From IMG/VR virus record IMGVR_UViG_3300030419_005236, positions 1 through 27,177 of that record: a DNA stretch of 27,177 bases; one strand, given 5' to 3'. Below, piece after piece: positions 9,979 to 23,574 of the stretch. Origin of the DNA: a virus. Below the pieces are notes generated by a model that worked only from the letters and a program-made list of their open reading frames with translations, searched no databases and was not told the DNA's origin. The position numbers and the translations under genes were made by a program. The first letter of the stretch is position 1, and the number at the start of each line of letters is the position of its first letter.

Positions 9979-10281
9979 ATGATTAAAATATTACCAATGG
10001 TGAAAGGTGTCATAAACGAAAAGAAAGAACTCGAGCAACGATTTATTGATTCATATGCTAAGATGACAGATAAGAATAATCACACAACAGCGAGATGGCA
10101 TTTAGCAGATAAGATCGGAGATAAGAAACTTGTCAAAGCATATGTAGGTTTATGGCAAATTGAAGATATATTAAAAGATGCTAGCGATACAAATAGAGCT
10201 CGTGATAGATTGGATAAACATTTATGGAAAGCTGTGGAAAAGAAATATAAAAATGCTGATGCAATTAAGGGAGCGTTTTAA
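9979..10281 (+). CDS. Small basic protein, first of the tagged cluster
   Basis: 100 residues from ATG 9979 behind AGAGAAGA. The N-terminus MIKILPMVKGVINEKK has the Lys-Ile-Leu-Pro start and an early Glu of the cluster described under the following genes, but its spacing is looser (Glu14). The rest is helical and Lys/Asp-rich (HLADKIGDKKLVKAYVG, RDRLDKHLWKAVEKK). An internal protein packaged with DNA is possible. The family is not recognised. Confidence 0.6.
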   Translation: MIKILPMVKGVINEKKELEQRFIDSYAKMTDKNNHTTARWHLADKIGDKKLVKAYVGLWQIEDILKDASDTNRARDRLDKHLWKAVEKKYKNADAIKGAF

Positions 10282-10282
10282 A

Positions 10283-10558
10283 ATGAAACTAGTAGATCTT
10301 ATACCTATCCACGAAGAAGAATCAATGGCTGATAAAGATATGAAAAAAGCCAAGCAGATGAAGAAGTATTTGGAAAAGACATTAACAGATATAGAAAAGG
10401 GTTTTAGTGATATAGAATATAATTTATCAGACTTCAATTCTCCAGGACTAAAAGCCGCTTATATAGATGCGATAAAACAAGGCATTGCATTTAGTCATAA
10501 GAATAAGTTTGATGGTAAACGCGCGATTAAAAAACTTGGTGAGTATTACAAGAGATAA
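10283..10558 (+). CDS. Small Lys-rich protein with KLxDLxPxxE N-terminal tag
   Basis: Start ATG 10283, one base after the previous stop, with AAGGGAG upstream; a longer in-frame version from 10178 would overlap the previous gene. 91 residues. It begins MKLVDLIPIHEEESMADK. The tag K2-L-V-D-L-I-P-I-H-E11 matches three other genes downstream. The body is helical (KAKQMKKYLEKTLTDIEKGF). The tag has the size and Glu end of the T4 capsid-targeting sequence cut by the prohead protease gp21; that link is inference. Confidence 0.65.
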   Translation: MKLVDLIPIHEEESMADKDMKKAKQMKKYLEKTLTDIEKGFSDIEYNLSDFNSPGLKAAYIDAIKQGIAFSHKNKFDGKRAIKKLGEYYKR

Positions 10559-10571
10559 TTGGAGATGACTT

Positions 10572-10880
10572 ATGAAATTAAATGATTTATCACCTACCAT
10601 GCGTCGCATTAAGATGATGAATAAAAATTCTGTAAACGAAGCTAAAATAAAAAAATGGAAAGATATACCAAAAAGTGGAACTATTGATTTTGGAAAATAT
10701 GGTAGATTTGTAATACTAAGTAAAAACGATTTGAGAGTTAGTGGAAAATTTGTATCAGGTTCTGCTAAAGGTAATAGAACAATTACATTTTATTCTGATA
10801 AAGGAAAAACTTATTATCGTAAAAGAAAAGGATTGAGCATATCAGATACTCCAGCATTTCCTTTTGATAATGTCAAGTAA
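10572..10880 (+). CDS. Small basic protein with partial tag
   Basis: 102 residues, ATG 10572 seven bases after GGAG. The start MKLNDLSPTMRR matches the cluster tag through Pro8 but has Arg at the Glu position; the next Glu follows SVN at residue 23 (NSVNEAK), which would be an alternative protease site. The remainder looks like a beta-rich domain (TIDFGKYGRFVILSKNDLRV, NRTITFYSDKGKTYY) and is strongly basic. Confidence 0.65.
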   Translation: MKLNDLSPTMRRIKMMNKNSVNEAKIKKWKDIPKSGTIDFGKYGRFVILSKNDLRVSGKFVSGSAKGNRTITFYSDKGKTYYRKRKGLSISDTPAFPFDNVK

Positions 10881-10881
10881 A

Positions 10882-11292
10882 ATGATTAAGTTAATGGATT
10901 TAATGCCCTTGGACGAACGTAATCACAGTCCAAATTGTGAAAGAAAATTACCAGGTGAATCTAACGCGGCATGGAGAAAACGATGTGGACCTAGACCTCT
11001 TGGAGCTATAGGTGGGATGAGTGAAAAACTATCTATTGGAGATGAATACGTAGGTACCGCTAGAGTAAAAGATGGTCGACAAGCACAGTTGTATCGAAGT
11101 AATGAAGCGGATCGCTATTCTATTGGAAAGAAGCATGGTATCAAAAAGCATGATTATTATTTACTCATAAAAGGTAAAGGTGCTAGTTATGTAGTTGATA
11201 CAGGTACACGTAACTTAAACAAGGCTGCTAAATGGGCACAGGGATACATACAAAGAAAGATGAGTGGCACAGGTAAAGAGAGATTTGTATAA
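10882..11292 (+). CDS. Small basic protein with KLxDLxPxxE tag
   Basis: ATG 10882 is chosen over upstream TTG 10864 and ATG 10870 because it follows the previous stop by one base and puts the tag at the N-terminus: MIKLMDLMPLDERNHS, Lys3 to Glu12 with the same spacing as its neighbours. 136 residues. After the tag comes a Cys-containing basic stretch (CERKLPGES, AAWRKRCGPRP) and a mixed region (QLYRSNEADRYSIGKKHG). No known domain. Confidence 0.65.
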   Translation: MIKLMDLMPLDERNHSPNCERKLPGESNAAWRKRCGPRPLGAIGGMSEKLSIGDEYVGTARVKDGRQAQLYRSNEADRYSIGKKHGIKKHDYYLLIKGKGASYVVDTGTRNLNKAAKWAQGYIQRKMSGTGKERFV

Positions 11293-11570
11293 TGAAAAAG
11301 AATTTTAAATTAGTTGATCTTATTCCAACAAATGAAAGAAGTGGTGATTATGGATATGCTAATAAAGAACTATCTACACCACGTAAGGTTGTAGTTCAAG
11401 GAATTGGTGTTTACACATATCCTGTGTTAAAAAAGAAAGTACAGAAGCTAGCGCTAGATTTGAGTAAGAATGCTAAAAGTGGTAACTTCAGCAAAGCTTC
11501 ACAGAGAGGGATAAGAGCATTTGCAGCAATGTGGGAAGCTTTAGCAGAATACGATAGAAACGCAAAATGA
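11292..11570 (+). CDS. Small basic protein with KLxDLxPxxE tag
   Basis: ATG 11292 overlaps the preceding TAA (TAATG). 92 residues. MKKNF precedes the tag KLVDLIPTNE (Lys6 to Glu15), then RSGDYGY. The C-terminal half is an alanine- and lysine-rich helix (KKKVQKLALDLSKNAKSG). It is part of the five-to-six-gene series with the same N-terminal pattern. Confidence 0.65.
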   Translation: MKKNFKLVDLIPTNERSGDYGYANKELSTPRKVVVQGIGVYTYPVLKKKVQKLALDLSKNAKSGNFSKASQRGIRAFAAMWEALAEYDRNAK

Positions 11571-11890
11571 AATTACAAGAATTACTACCCGTAACCGAAG
11601 TCTCTGGCAAAGTCAAAAGATTCAAACAAAAGCTCATGCGAAGAGGTATAAAGATTAGATATGATAGAGCCGCAGCTGAAAAAGATTTGCAGACTAAGTA
11701 TGGCGGGAAAGGTCAGGTTGTTGGCAAGAAGTTTGGATTAAGAAAAGCATATTATGCTACACCACAAGGAGGTTCAGGCGCATCAAAATCAAGACCTCAG
11801 CTCACTATTAACAAACAAGAAATGGACCAGCTTCATTCAAATGGTAAGATACAAAAGGGCAATGTCGATATAATATATAAAGATGAATAA
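11567..11890 (+). CDS. Small, very basic protein with KLxELxPxxE tag
   Basis: ATG 11567 overlaps the previous gene (ATGA). 107 residues. MKLQELLPVTE carries the tag (Lys2 to Glu11), then VSGKVKRFKQKLMRRG, so cleavage after Glu11 would release a strongly basic domain. The rest is Gly/Lys/Arg-rich (KYGGKGQVVGKKFGLRKAYY). A DNA-condensing internal head protein is an attractive but unproven reading. Confidence 0.7.
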   Translation: MKLQELLPVTEVSGKVKRFKQKLMRRGIKIRYDRAAAEKDLQTKYGGKGQVVGKKFGLRKAYYATPQGGSGASKSRPQLTINKQEMDQLHSNGKIQKGNVDIIYKDE

Positions 11891-11947: not shown

Positions 11948-12313
11948 ATGAACATTTTAGACAATTACAAAAATCATCTCACACGTTACACAGATCATTA
12001 CACACATTGTTATTTAAAGTGGTCTAAGAATACTGAATATGCAAAGAAAAAAGTAACAGAGAATCCACCTGTAGTTCGTCCTGGTCGCAAATTTGATAAG
12101 ATAGTTTTTCAGAATTCTATTATGGCATTTGTTGCAAAAGCTAATGGTATACATAAAGGAATTCCATATAAGATGGGAGATGTGTTCAAGTCTGCAACTC
12201 GTAGTCAACCGGCTAAGCATGTACGAGGAAGTATCTTTGCTGAAAGTTATGATGATTGGAATACTTGGACAGGACCTGGTTATATGTTTCAACTCAAGGG
12301 AGATAAAAAATAA
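11948..12313 (+). CDS. Hypothetical protein (121 aa)
   Basis: ATG 11948 behind AAAAAGGAG. A soluble basic protein with a His/Tyr-rich start (YTDHYTHCYLKWSK) and an Arg-Pro linker (PPVVRPGRKFDK). The C-terminal part includes TWTGPGYMFQLKG. The family is not recognised. Its stop overlaps the next start by one base (TAATG). Confidence 0.65.
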   Translation: MNILDNYKNHLTRYTDHYTHCYLKWSKNTEYAKKKVTENPPVVRPGRKFDKIVFQNSIMAFVAKANGIHKGIPYKMGDVFKSATRSQPAKHVRGSIFAESYDDWNTWTGPGYMFQLKGDKK

Positions 12314-12899: not shown

Positions 12900-13107
12900 T
12901 CTGTTAATGCATTGCTTTCCTGATCAGTATATGTTCAGAGGAAAGTATAAACAAATTACTGAAGAACAGACAGAAGCATTATCCTATACTCTCTATTTAA
13001 TGGAAAAGGGTTGGGGAAAGTATTGCGCTACTAATAGAGCTGGTGAAAAGCATAACGTATCAGTTAGGTTTTTGAGAAAGATGTTTAATTTATATTATCG
13101 TTTTTGA
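12871..13107 (+). CDS. Hypothetical protein (78 aa)
   Basis: ATG 12871 follows GAGGAA within the previous gene. It starts MNITLHEKIDLLMHCFPDQ and contains a helix ending YLMEKGWGKYC. Its last 13 bases overlap the end of the convergent minus-strand gene, so this is where two transcription units meet; no terminator hairpin was seen there. Confidence 0.6.
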   Translation: MNITLHEKIDLLMHCFPDQYMFRGKYKQITEEQTEALSYTLYLMEKGWGKYCATNRAGEKHNVSVRFLRKMFNLYYRF

Positions 13108-14078
13108 CGACGTGTAGTTCGTGAGTTTTTATTACCAGGAGTTGTCTGAGTACTTCTCGTTCTTTCTTGATTCACGTTTGTATTTCCAACAACTCTTCCG
13201 TCACGGTTAGTACTAGTAGATGAAGTAGTTTTATTACTTCGACCAATACCAGTTTTTTCCATCTCTTCAGTACGTTTGTTTACCTGTCTTTGAACTTCTG
13301 TTAATGGATTGTCAATCTTCTTTTTGCCCTTAGTCTTCTTAATCTCTCTTTTAATTTTTTCCTTGAGTTGTCTTTGAATCTTACCTTCTACTTGAGGAAA
13401 AGGAATAGATACATCCTTATTTAATTGACTACGATTTCTATCATTATATATTCTATAACAATTAGTGGCAATTGGTGCATCGATTGGATGATCTGGAGGA
13501 CATGTATAATAACCATCACCGGATCTATGTGTAGCATATAGTTCAGCAGGAAACCCGTCCGGGAACACGTATCCACTGTAATCATATACTTGACCAAAAT
13601 TCATTTGCATTTCTTTCTGAGCGTCAGTTAGTTCTACTTCTTCCTTATCTTCCTCAACAGTAGCTGCTGTAGCTGATCCGGGAATAGGTGTTAAAACCCC
13701 AGCTGGATCAATTGGGTGTACAACTCCAACTTTACCTCTGCCCACCATATAAGTACCGTTTTTATGTAAATGGTAAAAGCCTATATATTGTGTTCCGTTT
13801 GGTAAGTTGAACTCACCACCCTTTGTATATAGTCCAGCTGATACGATTGGATCTTCTACAACTGATTCTTTTTCTTGATTACGTAATGGATCAACAAGTT
13901 TGTTATCATCTTCAGGTAAACTCGTTTGTTCCATTCTTACATTAGCGCGGTCATCACGATCGCCAACAGGAGCTGTTGGTGCAACATCTCGCACACGACC
14001 TGTTTGATCAGTATCTGTTTGCGTTGTGATTCCTGTGTTATCACGTGATCGTCCGATATTCGAATACCCATTCGACAT
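13095..14078 (-). CDS. Virion-structural-like protein on the minus strand
   Basis: 327 residues, the only minus-strand gene here. ATG at 14078 behind AGGAG on its strand. Residues 1-75 are polar, rich in Asp, Arg, Thr and Gln. The core reads GGEFNLPNGTQYIGFYHLH, KNGTYMVGRG, then VYDYSGYVFPDGFPAE. A G-E-F-x-L-x2-G-x2-Y-I-G-x-Y-H-x-H-x2-G pattern like this recurs in marine T4-like virion proteins, as I recall it. A basic coiled segment (KIQRQLKEKIKREIKKTKGK) and a Thr/Asn/Arg-rich tail follow. It diverges from 14157 across a shared late-promoter palindrome. The exact virion location is unknown. Confidence 0.65.
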   Translation of the reverse strand: MSNGYSNIGRSRDNTGITTQTDTDQTGRVRDVAPTAPVGDRDDRANVRMEQTSLPEDDNKLVDPLRNQEKESVVEDPIVSAGLYTKGGEFNLPNGTQYIGFYHLHKNGTYMVGRGKVGVVHPIDPAGVLTPIPGSATAATVEEDKEEVELTDAQKEMQMNFGQVYDYSGYVFPDGFPAELYATHRSGDGYYTCPPDHPIDAPIATNCYRIYNDRNRSQLNKDVSIPFPQVEGKIQRQLKEKIKREIKKTKGKKKIDNPLTEVQRQVNKRTEEMEKTGIGRSNKTTSSTSTNRDGRVVGNTNVNQERTRSTQTTPGNKNSRTTRRQKR

Positions 14079-21202: not shown

Positions 21203-21637
21203 ATGGCAAGAATAGACACATCAGTAACTGGTTCGTTTGTAGAAGATAGAGATACAAATGTTAGTATTGGTTTAGATTTACCGCTACATAAAGAGTATGG
21301 ATCTAGTGGATATTTTGCTACAACCAAAACAACTGTAGAAGCTGTGAAGAATAATATTAGAAACTTGCTACTTACTAATAGGGGCGAACGTGTATTTCAA
21401 CCTCTGTTAGGAATAAACTTACGTCAGTTTTTGTTTGAGCATATAACACCTGATACAGTTTTTGCAATACAAAATGATATAAGGGATACCATGCAAACGT
21501 GGCTTCCATTCGTAATGACAGAAAACATAGAAGTTGAACAAGATCAAGCTAATCCAAATGCACTATCAGTCAAAGTTACTTTTAGGATACAAAAGGTACC
21601 AAACGCTTTGGATAGCGTAACAGTGAGAATAGAATAA
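21203..21637 (+). CDS. gp25: Baseplate wedge protein gp25
   Basis: 144 residues, the usual length. AVKNNIRNLLLTNRGERVFQ followed by PLLGINLRQFLFE (47-79) is the gp25/GpW family core (G-E-R-x-F-x-P, G, LFE). The C-terminal strands EVEQDQ, SVKVTFRIQ also fit. It is the conserved wedge component shared with type VI secretion TssE. The start codon of gp6 overlaps its stop by one base. Confidence 0.9.
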   Translation: MARIDTSVTGSFVEDRDTNVSIGLDLPLHKEYGSSGYFATTKTTVEAVKNNIRNLLLTNRGERVFQPLLGINLRQFLFEHITPDTVFAIQNDIRDTMQTWLPFVMTENIEVEQDQANPNALSVKVTFRIQKVPNALDSVTVRIE

Positions 21638-23574
21638 TGGCTTATAATAGTAATACAGGTAATGCACAAGTGGTAAACTATTTGGATAGAGATTTCCTAT
21701 CATTGAGACAGGCTCTTGTTGATTTTAGTAAAACATATTATCCTGAAACATATAAAGATTTTAATGAAACATCACCAGGTATGATGATGATGGAGATGAC
21801 TGCATATGTTGGTGATGTGTTAAATTTTTATGTTGATAAACAGTTTAGGGAAATGTTTTTACCACTAGCTAAAGAGAAATCAAATATCATACATCTCGCA
21901 CATGCTTTTGGATACAAAGTTAAACCAGTAAAACCTGCTACAGTTGAATTAACTTTCACACAGGACATAAGTTCTGTGACGTCTGATCCTAATAACATAC
22001 ATCCTAATTATAATGGACTGTCTAGTCAAACTCAAGTAATTGATTCTGGAACACAAATTAAATCAAACGTCGACGATTCAATTATATTTGAAACATTAGG
22101 AGAGGTTGATTTTACTATTTCGAGTTCTATGGATGAACCACCAATACCAGTTGAATATAATGCTGAGGGTTTGGTATCCACATACAGATTAACAAGAAAG
22201 GTAAAAGCTGTGTCAGGTGAGACAAAAACGACATCTGTTACTGTCGATGCTCCTACAAAATTTTTAAACGTGACGTTACCTGAAACCAATATTGTGGATG
22301 TTGTATCAATAACCGATAGTGCAGGAAATCAGTATCATGAAGTAGATTTTTTGACACAAGATAGAGTACCGATATCAACTCACTACACTGATGATTCAGA
22401 TCGATCAACTGCATATACAGCTTTGGATGGGACAACTATAATGAGTGCATCTGTACCATATACATTGAAATATATGTCAGCACCAAAACGTTTTACAACA
22501 GAGCTAAAACCAAAAACGGAGGAGACGGTATTGGTATTTGGTAACGGGCTCTTACGTTCTGGGACATCTGGTAGCTTGAAGTCAAATTTTCTAGAAATAG
22601 AGCAAGTAGGATTATCAGTACCAGGTACATCAGAAACCTTGACATCAAATATTGATATCAGATCTGGAGATGCTTTTGGAACCTTAGGTGAAGCACCTGC
22701 TAATACAGTACTAACAATATCTTATAGAGCTGGTGGTGGTTTAAAGAGTAATGTCTCTAGTGGTGAACTCACAATACTCAATGATTCTAATGTAAGTGTA
22801 ACAAATGATTTTCCAGCTCGAGGAGGAGCTGATATAGAGACGGAAGAAGAAATAAGAAAGCGAGCCTTGGCTTATTTTGCATCTCAAGCTAGATGTGTTA
22901 GTAAAGATGACTACTTTGGCAGAGTTATGCAAATGTCAGGTAAATATGGTAGCATAGCAAAGGCGTATGTAGATAGGACACAGATAGATGCAAACAATGA
23001 AGAGCCTGGAACAGTTAGGATTTATATACTAGCATATGATAATCAAAAAAGATTAATAAAAGCACCTAGTCTAACAAAACAAAACTTAAAAAATTATCTT
23101 AATGAATTTAAAATGATTACGGATGATGTGATCATACAAGATGGTTTTTTTATTAACTTTGGAGTTGTCTTTGATGTACAATCTTATCCACAAGCAGATA
23201 AATCTGAATTAAAGATAAAATGTATCGAGACGATAAGAGACTTCTTCAATGTAGATAAGATGCAATTTAAACAGCCAATGCATTTAGGTGAATTAGAATA
23301 TGAGTTGTTGGGTATTGACGGATTGAGAAATATAAATTCAATTTACATAACACAAGATACACCACCACAAGGAACAAGCGGACCTGGTTTCGAACCCGCT
23401 CTGTACAACTATAATAATGTTGGAGAAATCACTGGCAACAATCCAGGTTATGGATATCCATATGGTTTGCAAAGTGAAGCATTAACTAATACTCGAACTA
23501 TACTACCAAGTATTGATCCAGCAGTATTTGAACTTAGAGATCCGGATAATAATATAAAAGGAGTGGTTAGATAA
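21637..23574 (+). CDS. gp6: Baseplate wedge protein gp6 (baseplate J-like)
   Basis: 645 residues, close to T4 gp6 (660). VNYLDRDFLSLRQALVDFSK and NETSPGMMMMEMTAYVGDVL form the N-terminal gp6 signature. ARGGADIETEEEIRKRALAY and RCVSKDDYFGRVMQM match the central baseplate J-like core. The C-terminus contains a Pro/Gly-rich region (PPQGTSGPGFEP). It makes the wedge ring that surrounds the tail hub. TAATG overlaps both ends. Confidence 0.9.
   Translation: MAYNSNTGNAQVVNYLDRDFLSLRQALVDFSKTYYPETYKDFNETSPGMMMMEMTAYVGDVLNFYVDKQFREMFLPLAKEKSNIIHLAHAFGYKVKPVKPATVELTFTQDISSVTSDPNNIHPNYNGLSSQTQVIDSGTQIKSNVDDSIIFETLGEVDFTISSSMDEPPIPVEYNAEGLVSTYRLTRKVKAVSGETKTTSVTVDAPTKFLNVTLPETNIVDVVSITDSAGNQYHEVDFLTQDRVPISTHYTDDSDRSTAYTALDGTTIMSASVPYTLKYMSAPKRFTTELKPKTEETVLVFGNGLLRSGTSGSLKSNFLEIEQVGLSVPGTSETLTSNIDIRSGDAFGTLGEAPANTVLTISYRAGGGLKSNVSSGELTILNDSNVSVTNDFPARGGADIETEEEIRKRALAYFASQARCVSKDDYFGRVMQMSGKYGSIAKAYVDRTQIDANNEEPGTVRIYILAYDNQKRLIKAPSLTKQNLKNYLNEFKMITDDVIIQDGFFINFGVVFDVQSYPQADKSELKIKCIETIRDFFNVDKMQFKQPMHLGELEYELLGIDGLRNINSIYITQDTPPQGTSGPGFEPALYNYNNVGEITGNNPGYGYPYGLQSEALTNTRTILPSIDPAVFELRDPDNNIKGVVR

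Follow-up and report, generated by a model that had tools for sequence, protein, structure and literature searches.

The stretch of DNA analysed here (the window, 27,177 nucleotides) comes from a marine bacteriophage and is part of a record of 27,464 bases from an uncultured virus, the record itself being a fragment; it raises the question of why six small genes lying side by side open with the same kind of peptide. The genes (9979, 10283, 10572, 10882, 11292 and 11567) are all on one strand and nearly abut, the end and start coordinates of neighbours being 10281/10283, 10558/10572, 10880/10882, 11292/11292 and 11570/11567. As argued below, the shared front tag very probably serves as an address by which proteins are loaded into the virus head. 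The parts of the six genes are given in Table 1; here and in the text a slash marks the boundary after Glu.

Table 1. Tags and cargo modules of the six window genes
Feature	Position	Strand	Remarks
Tag of gene 9979, divergent, MIKILPMVKGVINE	9979-10020	+	cleavage after Glu14 inferred
Cargo module of 9979, basic all-helical domain with TDxNNH motif	10021-10278	+	AlphaFold2 model
Tag MKLVDLIPIHE of gene 10283	10283-10315	+	homologue L070 has MIKLKDMLNE
Cargo of 10283, basic, unknown fold	10316-10555	+	tagged protein in L070/L098 is 42% identical
Long tag MKLNDLSPTMRRIKMMNKNSVNE of gene 10572	10572-10640	+	Glu aligns with relatives' module boundaries
Cargo module of 10572, basic	10641-10877	+	75-89% identity to L238 and to internal modules of L185, L236 and L237 long ORFs
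Tag MIKLMDLMPLDE of gene 10882	10882-10917	+	homologues have MIKLKELLE / MVKLKDLLE before the same domain
First cargo module of 10882, CERKLPGESNAAWRKRCGPRPLG	10918-11025	+	ends in second candidate site GMSE
Second cargo module of 10882	11026-11289	+	tagged proteins in L007/L008/L009 are 74-78% identical
Tag MKKNFKLVDLIPTNE of gene 11292	11292-11336	+	
Cargo of 11292, basic	11337-11567	+	36-66% identity to modules in L140, L070, L186 and L108
Tag MKLQELLPVTE of gene 11567	11567-11599	+	
Cargo of 11567, basic	11600-11887	+	no relative found in homologue searches

Four of the genes (10283, 10882, 11292 and 11567) open with K-L-x-[DE]-L-x-P-x-x-E and have a Lys-to-Glu distance of nine residues without exception, as a sequence-only reading of the region had reported; the start codon of 10882 lies inside a longer open reading frame (ORF). 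The expression ^M.{0,5}K[LIM].[DE][LM].P..E was matched by 4 of the 51 window genes, against a mean of 0.00045 when residues 2-25 were shuffled (Monte Carlo), and a chance origin of the four tags is excluded. Read by eye, the tag codons differ synonymously among the genes (Leu as CTA or TTA, Pro as CCT, CCC or CCA, Ile as ATA or ATT), so that conservation acts at the protein level, and conservation as a DNA leader is ruled out. Genes 9979 and 10572 had been counted as tag carriers, but weak ones; the first part stands and the second does not, since both are true members with a longer tag and a Glu further in. After this Glu the proteins continue with KKELE (9979) and AKIKK (10572), and in their relatives the corresponding module likewise begins after Glu: homologues of 9979 read MIKLKNLLNE/KAEL, MIKLKNILQE/KKDL, MVKLKTLLTE/KKEL and the like, and the boundaries aligned with the Glu of 10572 are ESVNE/AIKKW (L185), ESVNE/AKIKKW (L238) and QIGE/AKIKRW (L236). 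Across the window the Glu sites are IHE, LDE, VTE, TNE, INE and VNE, five of the six with I, L or V at P3, the exception being a Thr (PTNE).

The proteins behind the tags are basic in all six cases (pI 9.2-10.4) and unrelated to one another, both as proposed from the sequence alone: they have no Pfam or PHROG match in common, none of the six reached any family of either below E = 0.005, and they fall into separate BLAST families. Gene 10882 probably holds two modules, judging from a second Glu at residue 48 (GMSE/KLSIG) that lines up with the point where the tag stops in homologues; its first module shares 81% identity, along 32 aa, with part of a separate upstream ORF (L069:9701-10627), a module there. 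Among the relatives of the 11292 cargo, L140 carries the tag MNLKDILKE, and in L108 the module comes after KESVTE. In the AlphaFold2 model of the 9979 cargo module, the mean pLDDT is 88 and helices span residues 20-31, 35-46, 49-65, 68-89 and 93-99, and a PDB fold search with this module returned nothing significant. For the 9979 family the first ten-residue block has a mean pLDDT of 47 and the helical body exceeds 90 from residue 21 on; residues 1-31 of another tagged family (F2, described below) are modelled below 50. The tag is thus predicted to be disordered in front of a folded body, and the outcome that would have refuted a label, a shared N-terminus that is a whole conserved domain, was not met with.

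We searched public viral contigs with a degenerate nucleotide pattern encoding MK[LF]x[DE][LF]IPxxE and obtained 32 stretches, versus 4 for a control with permuted codons and equal information content. A few of the 32 matches look like chance (e.g., L011, L014, L023, L029, L037 and L038), consistent with the 4 of the control; the true ones come mostly from AT-rich contigs and show MKLVDLIPLKE or the LQE variant before several differing proteins, often in tandem (L010, L019, L030, L033). Relatives of gene 10882 carry a sister form, MIKLKELLE, and a scan with MIKLK[DE]LLxE gave at least 120 stretches with at least 111 complete tagged ORFs. Pooling both forms, we count at least 176 non-redundant tagged ORFs, and the expectation that the tag would recur before unrelated proteins in viral contigs is borne out by at least 81 unrelated cargo families, delimited at a BLAST E of 1e-3. 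When 80 family representatives were aligned, only M1, K3, L4 and E10 were conserved at 90% or above. The tag on one cargo can differ by lineage, as with MKLVDLIPLKE and MIKLKDLLGE on homologous cargo (F0), and the cargo is unrelated in 35 of the 39 adjacent tagged pairs of the collection; as far as sequence comparison can tell, the tag is separable from its cargo. These data bear on the idea that the six genes are recent paralogues, copies of a single gene whose 3' part has diverged and whose start is left as a relic. Such a history would suit the tandem arrangement on one strand, but the cargos have separate relatives elsewhere with tag variants of their own, and the tag on a given cargo changes from one phage lineage to another; paralogy is contradicted by the separate cargo homologies, and we give it virtually no credence. 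No isolate phage matched the single tagged proteins by tblastn, the nearest isolates in the searched collection being Immutovirus, Mel-JY01 and RM378; for the baseplate protein of the window (21637-23574), the isolates that match best are Microcystis phage Mel-JY01 and Flavobacterium phage immuto.

The Glu that is conserved in the alignment was part of the search pattern, and it was therefore tested separately, on 66 non-seed ORFs of the fetched loci matched only by M..K[LIF]x[DE][LFIM][LIMFV]. In this unselected set a Glu stands two residues after the pattern in 68% of the ORFs, with a background of 7% and values of 6-14% at neighbouring positions. The fixed Glu is no artefact of the search.

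A like boundary is found inside longer ORFs. The 10572 module (NSVNE/AKIKKW) has a counterpart of 77% identity midway along an ORF of 483 aa, with ESVNE before it and KESLSE after it, and other boundaries in the same ORF read ESINE/D and FESVNE/A. Over 63 internal module starts from 14 families, Glu occupies position -1 in 56%, versus 7%. For the 9979 module we chose 57 contexts solely by its core motif, of which 40 have a short leader and 17 have long upstream sequence; [LIVMTYAF]-x-E stands at the boundary in 56 of the 57 and at 4% of other upstream positions. Homology of the first module residues may contribute to this figure, though the preceding sequences are unrelated. These data suggest that the long modular ORFs are candidate polyproteins cut by the prohead protease, the cleavage being inferred, and related phages seem to produce cargo in two ways, as single proteins with a tag and as polyproteins with a cut site of like type. 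Long basic ORFs of this kind include L185:1046-2494 (-), L108:3180-5183 (-), those of L236 and L237, and cyanophage genes in L216, L217 and L219; they consist of small modules (Cys-rich, HVA1-like and others) with ES[VI][NTD]E-like junctions. The modules of the long ORFs occur also in many Synechococcus and Prochlorococcus phages.

The sequence-only reading had called for a comparison of the tag with the phage's own capsid precursor. The window's record of about 27 kb, a fragment, yielded neither a gp21 match nor any ORF recognised as a capsid gene, so that the comparison could be made only in relatives, where the likeness holds. The gp23 precursors of 13 tag-bearing phages have a propeptide that ends in L-[LIV]-x-E (LIKE/A, LLDE/A, LIDE/A, LVQE/S), its end being placed by analogy with T4 FLTE/A, and their gp22 begins ..ILKE/A or ..LLKE/A. 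Of the first 14 tagged records, 6 contain gp23 and 5 contain the S77 protease gp21; 30 further records show gp23 in 10 and do not show it in 20, most records in both sets being fragments. Relatives of sufficient length contain a T4-type gp21 protease, gp22 and gp23. Several window cargos have their closest relatives in records G010 and G011, and there many of the tagged genes are interspersed among the clustered head genes for portal, gp21, gp22 and gp23.

A position matrix built only from 10-residue tags was run over 337 T4 ORFs and gave gp24 (MAKINELLRE) the top rank at 10.8 bits, against 6.2 for the runner-up. The first ten residues of T4 gp24 are a propeptide of the same length as the tag, and they are cut off by the prohead protease gp21 (PMC9958956); gp24 itself is a vertex protein of the shell, unlike internal cargo. 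With the same matrix ipIII came 24th and ipI 43rd, so that the tag resembles gp24 more than the internal proteins. Mutation data for T4 IPIII assign residues 4 and 7 to targeting and residues 8 and 10 to processing (PMC9026906), and both IPIII (MKTYQEFIAE/A) and the marine MIKLK[DE]LLxE are hydrophobic or aromatic at 4, 7 and 8 with Glu at 10; this form thus has suitable residues at the key positions, their function in the tag being inferred by analogy, and the Pro form of the window is shifted and one to two residues longer. In T4 IPIII an Asp in place of the Glu stops processing and leaves targeting intact. It could be supposed instead that the N-terminus is retained in the mature protein, as an address for tail or baseplate or as a helix that docks on a partner from host or phage, which would agree with the position of the window genes and of those in L057/L068 near baseplate or tail genes, and with a window fragment that has no gp21. 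We regard this as very unlikely: the fixed Glu with its P3 hydrophobic equals the gp23 propeptide end of the same phages and the T4 gp24 propeptide, and modules begin after Glu even where no tag precedes them.

Taken jointly, the data are best explained by a removable capsid-targeting propeptide like the T4 capsid-targeting sequence (CTS), with basic cargo that is packaged and injected, an explanation in which we have good confidence, packaging, cleavage and injection all being inferred. The earlier proposal of a capsid-targeting label that ends at a protease Glu before unrelated basic proteins is in this respect supported at the level of sequence, virion presence and cleavage remaining inferences, by the spread over so many cargo families, the Glu in unselected ORFs, gp21, gp22 and gp23 in relatives, gp24 at the top of the matrix ranking, the disordered tag and the modules after Glu in longer ORFs. 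Points that count against it are the Thr at P3 of one window tag, the low matrix ranks of ipIII and ipI, the window record without gp21 match or recognised capsid gene, the further tagged records without gp23 (mostly fragments) and the late promoters described below. By inference from T4, the hydrophobic K-L-x-[DE]-[LI]-[LI] part would dock the protein on the prohead's scaffold core, which is of gp22 type. A gp21-type protease would then cut after the last Glu of the tag, at [LIVT]-x-E, as the likeness to gp23 and gp24 and the module boundaries let one infer, and the freed basic cargo would remain with the DNA in the head and be injected alongside it. The cargo modules would be interchangeable, with an inferred role in host take-over or counter-defence.

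The cargo has a median pI of 9.5, versus 6.8 for other ORFs. In its basicity it resembles the internal proteins of T4, which lie within the DNA. Domains matched by tagged relatives are NUDIX, HD, NT5C, zeta-toxin/AAA_33, phage lysozyme, metallopeptidase-like and 2H phosphoesterase, the last with two HxT motifs and matches to PF13563 (6e-5) and Acb1 (5e-4). It is on the patchy distribution and variety of such families that a narrower explanation has to be judged, in which tagged proteins reach the prohead core, are trimmed there and serve head assembly only, like T4 gp67/gp68, without injection. All of the sequence evidence is compatible with targeting alone, and some tagged families adjoin gp21, gp22 and gp23 (family F1, 142-162 aa). 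Service in assembly alone nevertheless seems unlikely to us: the families are unrelated and several are enzyme-like (NUDIX, HD, NT5C, 2H phosphoesterase, lysozyme), and the cargo is mostly basic, whereas T4 gp67 is by its sequence strongly acidic. Unrelated, patchy, enzyme-like and basic families therefore fit cargo better than scaffold. Starting from packaged and injected cargo, we lean, with some reserve, towards a wider reading, a general head-loading code of marine and freshwater T4-like phages, in which a tag K-L-x-[DE]-[LI]-[LI]-(P)-x-x-E or an [LIV]-x-E junction would mean a packed, cut and injected effector that can be listed from sequence; the virion effector set would then be large and fast-changing, possibly with counter-defence enzymes.

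A counter-defence role of the tagged cargo is speculative. IPI* of T4 blocks a restriction enzyme, and apart from the CTS the internal proteins of T-even phages have little in common (PMC3012670). The tagged 2H phosphoesterase lies at L183:10674-11222 (-), and its Acb1 (anti-CBASS) match is weak; it is possible that it is a counter-defence enzyme carried in the virion. Family F2 (L133:1830-2771 and 12 relatives) comprises tagged proteins of 300 aa whose invariant FH, STxT and NE recall ADP-ribosyltransferases; a fold search for an Alt-like enzyme gave only weak tankyrase matches with E above 1, which are not significant.

One near counterpart among known systems is the CTS of T4 IPI, IPII and IPIII, a peptide of about ten residues at the N-terminus of otherwise unrelated basic proteins, with a final Glu and hydrophobics at 4, 7 and 8 (PMC9026906; PMC3012670), and ipI has a longer version (Glu19), as do window genes 9979 and 10572 (PMC9026906; PMC3012670). 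The T4 consensus MKTYQEFIAE differs, however, from KLx[DE]LL or KLx[DE]LxP; unlike the T4 CTS, the tag stands on tens of cargo families including enzymes, has modules in long ORFs with Glu boundaries, and belongs to a different phage group. The mature domains of IPI-IPIII showed no homology to the six window proteins in the Pfam and PHROG searches at the threshold given above. T4 Alt and phage P1 Dar/Ddr are packaged in the head and delivered with the DNA, as we propose for tagged cargo, and Alt is cut at both ends by gp21 (PMC5694885; PMC9026906), but neither Alt nor Dar/Ddr is homologous to window cargo. Polyvalent proteins likewise string together many conflict-related domains, and one tagged cargo weakly matches MPTase-PolyVal; release of the polyvalent domains is ascribed to an embedded metallopeptidase (PMC5512222), whereas the Glu boundaries of the tagged system point to the prohead protease. 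The window proteins do not meet the criteria for polyvalent proteins, having one or two modules and no peptidase match, with long relatives that show Glu boundaries instead. Head proteins of phiKZ and SPN3US share propeptides and a gp21-type protease that cuts after Glu; their S/A/G-x-E cleavages were seen by mass spectrometry (PMC5694885), while the tag motif has a larger hydrophobic P3.

In the open-access literature searched, we found no description of marine phages with a repertoire of internal proteins based on a tag, or of prohead-protease polyproteins. The CTS principle is already known from T4; as far as that literature shows, what is new is the tag family, its scale (uncultured T4-like phages with at least 81 cargo families) and the link to polyproteins. 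Phage proteins injected with DNA are known mainly for a few laboratory phages, and a label that can be read in the sequence would turn their discovery into a search, the tag marking families most of which have no known function. The sequence by itself may thus be enough to tell what proteins related viruses carry in and inject. NUDIX, HD, nucleotidase, kinase-like, lysozyme and Acb1-like 2H-phosphoesterase cargos are plausible tools of early host take-over or anti-defence. If the explanation is true, the T4 CTS principle reaches uncultured phages and offers new short packaging tags, and it would suggest that the prohead protease doubles as a polyprotein processor.

Some further observations concern the surroundings of the tagged genes. 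The late promoters TATAAATA/CTAAATA were not enriched upstream of tagged genes, and none lies on the coding strand just 5' of the tagged run of the window, a finding that counts against the proposed explanation. Directly 3' of this run is an untagged DUF7717 protein (11948-12313); DUF7717 is also matched by one tagged protein elsewhere, so that the domain may occur with and without a tag. What appears to be the sole long minus-strand gene of the window (13095-14078; 327 aa, with a Thr/Arg-rich tail) had no PHROG match. The contigs with relatives of 9979 (L231-L235) are binned with metagenome-assembled genomes (MAGs) of Flavobacteriales, Flavobacteriaceae, Sphingobacteriales, Verrucomicrobiales and Phycisphaerae, which points only weakly to hosts. 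In the T4-like phages G010/G011, several pilin-like proteins (GFTLVELIMVMVILGILAAVAIPR) adjoin the tail tube and sheath genes (L073:2019-4093, L069:1653-2818). Two successive sheath-like genes (629 and ~770 aa) with near-identical N-termini (SSEKVVSPGVFTNEIDQTFLPA) are found at L069:3494-7715 and L073:4792-9004.
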